From a virus, in IMG/VR virus record IMGVR_UViG_3300027869_000010, positions 1 to 49,400 of that record: a stretch of DNA of 49,400 bases. One strand, given 5' to 3'. A program made the position numbers and the translations under genes. Every line of letters begins with the position of its first letter. The first letter of the stretch is position 1. Below the pieces are notes generated by a model. That model ran no database searches and was not told where the DNA came from. It saw nothing but the letters and a program-made list of their open reading frames with translations. Shown piece after piece: positions 138-2,751 of the stretch.

Positions 138-227
138 GGTGGCGCGCTGATCGTGCGAGAGTAGCAGGGAGATGGTCAGCACCAGCGAGACGGACGGCAG
201 GGCGAGCAGCAGCAGAGTCTTGCGCAT
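1..227 (-). CDS. Exported fibre-like protein, N-terminal part (continues at 49400-48816)
   Basis: The gene starts with ATG at 227 and runs off the left edge. Joined through the terminal overlap it is 225 codons including the stop (224 aa). The N-terminus is a typical signal peptide: MRK, a leucine-rich hydrophobic stretch to about residue 23, then a polar region with a likely cleavage site after ATA near residue 31. The exported part begins with a Pro/Gly/Trp-rich segment. No family is recognised. It follows the 101-aa gene at 231-536 with a 3-base gap. A signal peptide on a putative virion or surface protein is unusual, so it could also be a periplasmic or surface protein acting on the host. 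Confidence 0.85.
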   Translation of the reverse strand, partial: MRKTLLLLALPSVSLVLTISLLLSHDQRATAQVNPFPAGDPHWSYPVANKAALPAAAVWGAGETHVDLSSSVAYS

Positions 228-230
228 GAA

Positions 231-536
231 TCAGTCCTTTCCGGCGATCTCGACGGATGGGTAGAGGCGATGCACCTTGGCGAGGATTCGAGACTTGGCC
301 TGTCCCGTGCGGTGCCCCGCCATCTGCACGGCGAGGCGCGCGTGCTTCAGATCGGGAACCGGGAAGCTGTCGCCAGGGCCGGCGTGCGGCGCGTCCTGGC
401 GCTCCTGCGCCGTCAGGGCTGCGCGGGCGGCCGCTCCCCACGGAACCGCCCCGATGTCCGGCGAGGTGATGCGGCTCATGCGCCTGGCGACGACGGCCGG
501 GCGCATCTGCGCGTTGGTGATGGGCTCGGGGATCAT
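231..536 (-). CDS. Conserved small phage protein, DUF6582-like
   Basis: 101 aa, ATG at 536 overlapping the stop of the upstream 41-aa gene (ATGA). The C-terminal half carries GPGDSFPVPDLKHARLAV followed by a basic helix ending in a Tyr-Pro. This resembles the short DUF6582-type domain found in many phages (hxGPGxxFPIxDxxHAxxA). Its function is not known. I assign the family from the motif only. Confidence 0.8.
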   Translation of the reverse strand: MIPEPITNAQMRPAVVARRMSRITSPDIGAVPWGAAARAALTAQERQDAPHAGPGDSFPVPDLKHARLAVQMAGHRTGQAKSRILAKVHRLYPSVEIAGKD

Positions 537-921: not shown

Positions 922-950
922 CCCGGCTCCGGGGTGCCGCCGGAGCCGGG
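922..950 (-). other. Strong GC hairpin downstream of the permuted tRNA
   Basis: Arms 922-932 and 940-950 pair perfectly over 11 bp (CCCGGCTCCGG with CCGGAGCCGGG) around a 7-base loop. There is no T run on either side, so it is not a classical intrinsic terminator. It lies about 35 bases past the permuted tRNA and upstream of the holin-like gene. It could protect the tRNA transcript's 3' end or slow transcription. Confidence 0.6.
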
Positions 951-983: not shown

Positions 984-1060
984 GAGAGTGGAGGCGTCCT
1001 AGGCCACTAGACGACGGGGGACGGTGTCCCTCGGATGGACTCGAACCACCGTTTCCTCCT
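984..1060 (-). tRNA. Candidate circularly permuted tRNA (Glu-like, 3' half before 5' half)
   Basis: Read 5' to 3' on the minus strand the order is: GGAGG (1059-1055, anticodon stem 3' strand), AAAC (1054-1051, variable loop), GGTGG (1050-1046), TTCGAGT T-loop (1045-1039), CCATC (1038-1034), acceptor 3' strand CGAGGGAC (1033-1026), ACC (1025-1023), acceptor 5' strand GTCCCCCG (1022-1015), TC, GTCT (1012-1009), D-loop AGTGGCCTA with G18G19 (1008-1000), GGAC (999-996), G, then CCTCC (994-990) and ACTCTC. The two halves pair: CCTCC with GGAGG 5/5, acceptor 7/8 with one C-A mismatch. The D-arm, the U13-G22 pair and the missing base 47 match bacterial tRNA-Glu. The ends meet in the anticodon loop; CUC is the best-guess anticodon but the extra A at the 5' side leaves it unsure. 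The ACC linker equals discriminator A73 plus C74C75. No ordinary 3' half lies downstream and no 5' half upstream. Confidence 0.72.
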
Positions 1061-1069
1061 GGACCTACG

Positions 1070-1075
1070 ATTATA
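1070..1075 (-). promoter_or_regulatory. -10 box (TATAAT) for the permuted tRNA
   Basis: A perfect TATAAT lies on the minus strand two bases after the large terminase stop codon and 10 bases before the tRNA-like GGAGG. A start site 6-7 bases downstream would fall at the GGTCCA just before the anticodon stem. No good -35 hexamer sits 17 bases upstream (atgcgg), so the box alone is the evidence. Read-through from the terminase genes could also transcribe the tRNA. Confidence 0.5.
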
Positions 1076-1077
1076 CC

Positions 1078-2751
1078 TCAAAGCCTGAACCCCCGCATCA
1101 TCTCCGACAAGCTCCCCTCCACCGTCTTCGGCATCGTGCGAGGACCTGGCGCCAAGGCGGCCTCTCCGGCCCTCCCGCGGCCCATCATGGTCCGGTAGGC
1201 GCCGTGGACCAGGCAGACCAGATACAGCCCCGCCATCCCGGGGTGTGAGTGCTGGTCGTGCTTCGGCTTGATGCGCTCGAGGTCCAGACCTTCGAGGACG
1301 GCGCCGCTCGGGATATCCCGGCGCCACTCCCTCACCGCCGCGTTCCACTTCCGGCAGCGCGAGTGCCAGATCAGCTTGCCGCTGTCCATGTAGTACTGTG
1401 CCGTCCGGATCAGCCACTCTCGGCCCTCGTTGGTGTTCGCCCAGTCCGGGAGGACCTGCAGCGGGATGCCGCCGGCGCGGAGGTTGGTCTCCCAGCTCTG
1501 CTGATCGCTCTCCCGGTTCTTGCCGGTGGGGTCGCCGACGTGCACGATGTGGCGGCCATAGCCGTTGCGCTGGACCCGCTGGCGCACATCCTTCGCCGCG
1601 GTGAGCCAATTCTCGGCGTACCACCACAGTTCGTCGTCGAGCCAGATCCGCGGAAGTTGATCGGGCCTGTTCGCCGGCGGCAGCTCGAGGAGTGCGAGCA
1701 GACAGACCAGCATGCTCGGCCCGGTGCCAAAGTCCCAGGCGCCGACCGAGACCAGCGCCCGCCGCGCTTCCTCCGGACCTCCGATGCCCTTCCAGCGGTC
1801 GTCTTCCTCGTCGTAGAGCAGGCGGGACCTCGCGGCGCGCGGGCAGTCGTCCTCGAGCGAGCCGGAGAAGCTGAAGATGGCAACGCCAGGCTCGACCTCG
1901 GTGCTGTTCCAGTTGCCCTCGAGCAGCCGATCGCCCTCGACGGGATCCTGCAGCAGCAGGTTGCCGGCATAGCCGGGGTCCCGCCGCTGAAGCGACGGGT
2001 TGTCCTCGAGCTTCGCCGGAATGAAGGTCACGCTCTTCGGCGGACCCTTGCGCGCGAGGTCTGGATTGGCCGCGGTCGCCTCGTCTTTGCTGTCGTACCA
2101 GCAGAGCACCTTCTTGCGGCGGTACAGCCAGCGGATGATGCCGCTACGCTCGGGGATCGGCAGGCCGATCACCGGGTCGATCCACCACGAGATGAGCTTC
2201 TTGATCCATGAGCGGCTATCTGGGTTGACGGTGGCGCGACAGTAGGGCTGGATGCCGCAGACGGAGCGGTTGCGGGAGAGCAGGTACCACCAGGTTGCCT
2301 CCGCGCGGATCTCCTCTTGCTCCCGCGTCTTGCCGGCACCGCGCCCTACGAGGGTGAGCTCGTCGTAGCCGAGATAGCAGATCTGTGCGCCCTGGTGCTC
2401 GTAGCGCTCTTTGGCGTGGTTCAGGTGCCCGAAGCTGATGGTGTTCCTGAAGGGCGGAAAGGTGAAGCTAAGCTCGTCCTCGCGGGGCCGCCCGCCGAGC
2501 GGGATGTAGAGGCCGCAGGCTTCGTCCCAGAGCGCGCCTTCCTCTGTGATCTGGGTCGAGGTCTGGCGGAAGATCTTGCCGCCAAAGCCAGGGACGGTGA
2601 AGAGGTGGCGCAGGGGCTCGAGGAGCAGGCCGTAGGACTTGCCGCCACCGGCAGCGCCGCCGTAGATGCAAATGTCGGCTGAGGTCGAGAGGAACCGTTC
2701 CTGTGGCCCGGGGTGGGGCCTGATGCGGGGGCGGTCTACGGCGGCTAGCAC
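1078..2751 (-). CDS. terL: Terminase large subunit
   Basis: 557 aa. This is the DNA-packaging motor: an N-terminal ATPase drives DNA into the prohead and a C-terminal RNase H-like nuclease cuts the concatemer. Walker A is GAAGGGKS at residues 32-39. Walker B is ICYLGYDE at 124-131. The coupling motif ATVNP is at 173-177. The nuclease acidic residues are D340 (in GAWDFG), D407 (in HVGDPTG) and D499 (in KHDQH). The length is normal for the family. It ends 18 bases before the permuted tRNA. The nearest upstream gene is the 51-aa gene at 2781, and the small subunit lies beyond three small genes rather than directly adjacent. Confidence 0.97.
   Translation of the reverse strand: MLAAVDRPRIRPHPGPQERFLSTSADICIYGGAAGGGKSYGLLLEPLRHLFTVPGFGGKIFRQTSTQITEEGALWDEACGLYIPLGGRPREDELSFTFPPFRNTISFGHLNHAKERYEHQGAQICYLGYDELTLVGRGAGKTREQEEIRAEATWWYLLSRNRSVCGIQPYCRATVNPDSRSWIKKLISWWIDPVIGLPIPERSGIIRWLYRRKKVLCWYDSKDEATAANPDLARKGPPKSVTFIPAKLEDNPSLQRRDPGYAGNLLLQDPVEGDRLLEGNWNSTEVEPGVAIFSFSGSLEDDCPRAARSRLLYDEEDDRWKGIGGPEEARRALVSVGAWDFGTGPSMLVCLLALLELPPANRPDQLPRIWLDDELWWYAENWLTAAKDVRQRVQRNGYGRHIVHVGDPTGKNRESDQQSWETNLRAGGIPLQVLPDWANTNEGREWLIRTAQYYMDSGKLIWHSRCRKWNAAVREWRRDIPSGAVLEGLDLERIKPKHDQHSHPGMAGLYLVCLVHGAYRTMMGRGRAGEAALAPGPRTMPKTVEGSLSEMMRGFRL

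Follow-up and report, generated by a model that had tools for sequence, protein, structure and literature searches.

Behind the large terminase gene of the phage record IMGVR_UViG_3300027869_000010 lies a short element in which the 3' half of a Glu-type tRNA is followed by the 5' half, raising the question of whether this is a tRNA gene with exchanged halves, the remains of one, or an RNA of another kind. The window analysed here is the whole stretch of DNA, i.e. positions 1 to 49,400 of that record, and relatives of the element were sought in phage contigs and in a set of genomes. Our answer is that the element is probably a stand-alone tRNA mimic of the YrlA type rather than a tRNA gene, with no Y stem and no phage Ro60; it is this stand-alone, Ro-less form of the known YrlA-domain architecture that is the novel part.

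Position, parts and fold of the element

Direct reading of the minus strand places the permuted tRNA-Glu-like module at 990..1059 (-), 3' half first; the location given in the original prediction stands, and its limits of 984-1060 were slightly generous. Read in its own direction, the unit consists of the 3' strand of the anticodon stem, GGAGG (1055..1059), which doubles as a Shine-Dalgarno-like string, a 4-base variable loop AAAC (1054-1051), a T-arm GGTGG-TTCGAGT-CCATC (1034..1050), which has a consensus T-loop and a stem paired at five of five positions including one G-U, and the 3' strand of the acceptor helix, CGAGGGAC (1026..1033). The trinucleotide ACC (1023..1025) forms a loop that closes the acceptor helix, in the position where relatives carry a GAAA, UUCG or other cap. 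After it come the acceptor 5' strand GTCCCCCG (1015..1022), the dinucleotide TC (1014-1013), a D-arm of Glu type, GTCT-AGTGGCCTA-GGAC (996..1012), whose letters are identical to those of ordinary phage tRNA-Glu genes (alignment A3), a single G (995) and the anticodon stem 5' strand CCTCC (990..994), all on the minus strand. The pairings originally described across the two halves were confirmed by this reading: the anticodon stem has five of five pairs (CCTCC at 994-990 with GGAGG at 1059-1055) and the acceptor helix seven of eight (1022-1015 with 1033-1026), the exception being one C-A mismatch. A reading of ACC as a discriminator base followed by CC, to be completed by the CCA enzyme, was not pressed, the 7-bp acceptor register giving C-ACC and not NCC(A). 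Because the linear MFE of the minus strand is not unusual (z=-0.1, with single-strand MFE preferring a variant fold), the argument draws on covariation and on sequence features specific to tRNA and leaves stability aside.

The large terminase subunit gene terL, recognised by its translation, occupies 1078..2751 (-), and the module starts 18 nt past its end. This terL is 71% identical to a terminase-like gene of IMGVR_UViG_3300027521_000001 and matches, at the DNA level, Rhizobium phage genes annotated as terminase large subunit; DNA similarity of the window to public phages is confined to 162 bases of terL shared with two Rhizobium phages. A -10-like hexamer, TATAAT (1070..1075, -), stands 10 nt ahead of the module and is a putative promoter element; a consensus scan found no complete promoter, the hexamer having no -35 partner. 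Some 40 bases past the module, at 922-950 (-), lies a perfect 11-bp G+C-rich hairpin, CCCGGCTCCGG/CCGGAGCCGGG, which has no T run and is possibly an RNA 3' end or processing signal.

Detection by tRNA finders and covariance models

ARAGORN calls no tRNA gene at the element in its native order, nor an ordinary tRNA anywhere in the window; Rfam at gathering thresholds gives no match there, tmRNA included. The element has neither mark of an ordinary tRNA gene, that is, a 5' half that comes first and a call by the finders. Phage annotation misses such units because they escape both the standard tRNA finders and Rfam searches at gathering thresholds.

A covariance model, R1, built only from eight ordinary phage-contig tRNA-Glu genes rotated at the anticodon loop (alignment A3), gives exactly one match on the 49.4-kb window, covering the whole unit, at 63.8 bits and E=1.6e-18, which bears out the claim of a permuted Glu-type unit right after the large terminase. 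Ordinary tandem tRNAs, in which a T-arm also precedes a D-arm, reach at most 47.5 bits with the same model, against 63.8 for the window module. With the T- and D-arm positions held fixed, random window segments fit the acceptor helix by chance in 0.6% of cases, the anticodon stem in 0.9% and both jointly in about 6e-5. The natural-YrlA model R2, made from 24 natural Ala-type modules, gives the element just 20.7 bits, and Rfam YrlA (RF02553) does not match it even at E<=10, the region yielding chance matches only.

Permuted relatives in phage contigs and bacteria

Permuted modules in the order of the YrlA tRNA-like domain occur by the dozen in phage contigs. A Glu-type DNA pattern, consisting of a T-loop, 8-38 bases and a Glu D-arm, matched 14 loci in IMG/VR, mostly tandem ordinary tRNAs. 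At L095, L104 and L105 the T- and D-arms lie outside any ordinary tRNA and the intervening segment pairs with itself, giving the acceptor hairpins TGACC-GAAA-GGTCA, CGAATCGG-GAAA-CCGGTTCG and ACTGTCGG-TTTCCA-CCGGCGGT, respectively; this hairpin is paired in all matches to the Glu-type pattern whose arms lie outside ordinary tRNAs. TROVE-domain (Ro60/Rsr) genes lie directly 3' of L095 and L104, and this placement is a pointer to bacterial Y RNAs. A pattern combining an Ala-type D-arm with a GAAA cap matched 35 loci; inspection showed eight to be tandem tRNAs and left 27 permuted ones, and 20 of the 27 records with this GAAA-capped permuted type have a TROVE match. Rfam YrlA matches the permuted units in 11 of 14 loci tested, with E values of 2e-8 to 4e-4, all under the gathering score. 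A wider Glu-type scan yielded at least 12 further records with varied caps, with a TROVE match in four of 12 (one below the cut-off). Applied to 84,980 genomes, the Glu-type pattern found mostly ordinary tandem tRNAs and two permuted matches in Catenulispora; these, L162 151-221 (+) and L193 267-337 (+), are of Glu type with a UUCG-like cap, and the two genomes carry TROVE genes elsewhere.

The permuted order is consequently a known architecture, as indicated by the YrlA match and TROVE linkage of the relatives and by YrlA reviews, papers that do not use the word 'permuted'. The original prediction saw no bacterial precedent, a view that has to be abandoned, since the same arrangement is present in the YrlA tRNA-like domain and is common in phages. 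Because a cap closes the acceptor end of the relatives, that end is not chargeable unless opened.

Among the relatives, L105 (IMGVR_UViG_3300042010_000058, a 109 kb phage contig) has a Glu-type module with a full anticodon stem (GAGAG/CTCTC) and a 6-nt acceptor loop, which adjoins a tRNA-Trp gene. Directly after it, at 205-265 (-), is a second, weaker permuted module (26.4 bits with R1) that reads GGAG-GAC-GTTGG-TGCAAAT-CCAAC-CAGC-AATA-GCTG-TCGTCTAGTTAGACTAGGGCA-CTCC. Modules at L212 near 11572 (-) and L236 near 7035 (-) have TCCA or ACCA exactly 3' of the acceptor 3' strand, like a tRNA 3' end, and opening by RNase P could, to judge from these letters, give them a chargeable CCA end. Permuted modules at L119, L136, L137, L140, L144, L145 and L148, mostly with an outer flank stem, lie in records without a TROVE match and are perhaps a further Ro-less subclass.

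Covariation across the permutation junction

Nine Glu-type modules, those of the window, L095, L104, L105, L148, L151, L156, L162 and L193, were aligned by fitting to R1 (alignment A5). L162 and L193 were kept, though ARAGORN puts their T-arm in a tRNA, because each has an 8-bp UUCG-capped hairpin. This alignment is fitted to the structure and includes two almost identical sequences, L162 and L193. Of its cells 94.1% pair, and 14 of the 21 base pairs show changes on both sides; the covariation score of 0.765 compares with 0.165 in shuffles (0 of 500 reach the observed value), while slid controls, with 35-51% of cells paired, do not exceed 0.20. The acceptor helix (helix 3), which spans the permutation junction, is 95% paired with double changes in seven of seven pairs. 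The anticodon stem is 81% paired, all five pairs being present in the window, L105 and L151 and the inner pairs only in the other six, while the D-arm is invariant because it was fixed by the search pattern. The compensating changes in relatives on which the original prediction had staked its case are thus present, the cross-junction stems covarying in nine natural modules. Architecture and covariation together establish the order and fold of the element and its kinship with the YrlA domain.

The corresponding site in a sister phage

Among the relatives identified through terL, the only long close one is IMGVR_UViG_3300027521_000001 (G001), which is circular and collinear with the window phage; L003 has a terL truncated short of its end, and the rest are distant. 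A BLAST-type search of the element in G001 and the other terL relatives gave no match. At the same spot after the terL stop, G001 has TAGAAT in place of TATAAT and then a T-arm, GGTGG-TTCGAAT-CCGCC. Run unfiltered on 400 bases of G001, R2 finds a permuted module with the D-arm CCTC-AGGGGCTA-GAGG, a weak match of 13.4 bits (E=1.3e-4); under default filters on 116 kb only the T-arm of this module was matched. R1 barely detects it (10 bits), and the module is poorly conserved, with a sequence and D-arm type unlike those of the window. A pairing of GGCGC/GCGCC with a 1-nt variable loop was considered for G001 and dropped; the unfiltered model search places the D-arm elsewhere (CCTCAGGGGCTAGAGG), a solution that is better yet weak. 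From the two sequences, it is likely that a module is conserved at the post-terL site in both phages.

Two further observations concern G001. Positions 1-135 of L012 and the end of L013 contain a second T-arm-like hairpin, GCAG-TTCGACT-CTGC, with an outer 9-bp helix, CTCGCGGCG/CGCCGCGAG, arranged as if one tRNA-like fold were nested inside the other. The phage also has an ordinary tRNA-Gly(GCC) gene at L012 3144-3216 (+).

Missing partners and alternative explanations

A TROVE gene, a Y stem and two RNA ligase families were looked for directly. TROVE (PF05731) is absent from the three phage records searched, those of the window, the circular sister G001 and L105. Most YrlA-type modules have an outer duplex with z between -1 and -6.5. 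That of the window module has z=+0.3, with 181 of 300 flank shuffles equally good, the L105 flanks are no better than shuffles (z=+0.1), and L260 and L265 have no Y stem by the same measure (z=+0.1 and -0.2). RtcB (PF01139) and T4 RNA ligase 1 (PF09511) give no match in the window record or G001.

These results bear first on the idea that the element is a true Y RNA (YrlA), with Ro60 coming from the host and the lower stem from the flanks, partly in the terL end. The module order is common to YrlA, and several phage records with clear Y-stem modules are also without TROVE, many of them being fragments, so that a host-supplied or absent Ro60 is not rare. The flanks even offer two candidate helices of 7 bp, GGGGTTC/GAACCCC and TTTGAGG/CTTTAAA, but both are chance-sized, the best outer duplex does no better than shuffled flanks, one strand lies inside the terL coding end and the Rfam YrlA model does not match, which makes this explanation unlikely.

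It is rather improbable that the element is a relic without present function, left when a tandem tRNA-Glu duplication lost its outer halves to give a 3' half, ACC and a 5' half. A tandem duplicate alone would yield pairing in both stems, ACC appears in some alignments as the remnant of a 3' NCCA end, and the sequence is not kept in G001; on the other hand, a T-arm module stands at the same site in that phage, both stems of the window module are still nearly perfect, and covarying relatives elsewhere keep the permuted form as such.

A genuine permuted tRNA gene, circularised at the anticodon loop and opened by RNase P into a working tRNA-Glu, is very improbable: all tRNA elements bar the anticodon loop are present and ARAGORN reports a tRNA if given the rotated halves with an added 7-nt loop, but that anticodon came from the analyst and not the sequence, no 7-nt loop with U33 being readable from the flanks (GTCCA before GGAGG, ACTCTCC after CCTCC, so that the bases 3' of the 5' anticodon-stem strand are A, then C, and position 33 is not U), the phage has no match to the RtcB or T4 RNA ligase 1 families, the relatives show capped acceptors and Y stems, and permuted tRNAs of algae and archaea depend on a bulge-helix-bulge motif, a tRNA splicing endonuclease and a ligase (PMC3978253). 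A tRNA function is unlikely because there is no readable anticodon loop and no joining machinery in the families tested, and the suggestion of maturation by circularisation is left unsupported by the same findings. Nor does the likeness to an already cleaved tRNA carry over to the relatives, in which the 'anticodon stem' side runs into the Y stem and not into a broken loop.

Possible mode of action and significance

If the element is, as we prefer, a stand-alone YrlA-type mimic, it would be transcribed from TATAAT or as the tail of the terL mRNA, and the RNA would fold in cells to an L shape with its acceptor end blocked. It would be neither charged nor decoding, such mimics being excluded from translation because the acceptor end is closed, and would act in trans by tying up tRNA-recognising proteins of the host. 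For YrlA, published work names PNPase, TruB and DusA as partners (PMC8394870). A nuclease that cuts tRNA may be added to the candidates, the tRNA-like domain having been proposed as a possible competitive inhibitor of anticodon nuclease (PMC7790460). By analogy, PNPase or another RNA-decay or modification enzyme may tentatively be put forward as the partner of the window RNA. Action as a tRNA nuclease decoy, already raised in the original prediction, is a sensible idea in view of that parallel proposal, if a somewhat doubtful one. More speculative, and on balance unlikely, is a whole phage class of free-standing, Ro60-independent permuted mimics (the window element, L105 and perhaps L260 and L265) that would serve as decoys where host defences or toxins cut tRNA.

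Should stand-alone mimics be real, the tRNA-like domain of Y RNAs would be a separable effector, put to use by phages in the absence of Ro60, and Ro-less forms would help to decide what this domain does alone. The long-open question of tRNA mimicry by Y RNAs would then be testable with a 70-nt RNA.

Comparison with known systems

Like the permuted tRNA genes of algae and archaea (PMC3978253, PMC3218864), the window element has its 3' half ahead of its 5' half and both stems close; those genes have a real anticodon loop, a bulge-helix-bulge at the junction and an endonuclease and ligase to process them, whereas the window offers no such loop and no match to RtcB or T4 RNA ligase 1. Two-piece permuted tmRNA (PMC3978253) is another permuted tRNA-like RNA of bacteria, but it is distinguished by a reading frame for a tag and a break further downstream, neither of which is seen in the window unit, and Rfam tmRNA does not match.

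The closest parallels lie with YrlA, which combines an Rsr-binding stem with a domain like the D, T and acceptor arms of tRNA, is modified by DusA and TruB and can bind PNPase (PMC8394870); for the tRNA-like domain of this RNA (Rfam RF02553), Chen et al. 2014 and Wang et al. 2018 are cited in PMC8394870. Shared with YrlA are the order of T-arm, closed acceptor helix and D-arm, the tRNA-type T- and D-loops, the occurrence in phages, and module ends that pair where a tRNA has its anticodon stem. The window unit differs in being without the Ro60-binding stem, a TROVE gene in its record or an Rfam YrlA match, and in having the triloop ACC in place of a tetraloop cap, a complete anticodon stem of 5 bp and a Glu-type D-arm, which is present in just some YrlA-like modules. 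L105 resembles it in being a Glu-type permuted module with a full anticodon stem, Ro-less and without a Y stem, and is set apart by its tRNA-Trp neighbour, its second, weaker module and its 6-nt acceptor loop.
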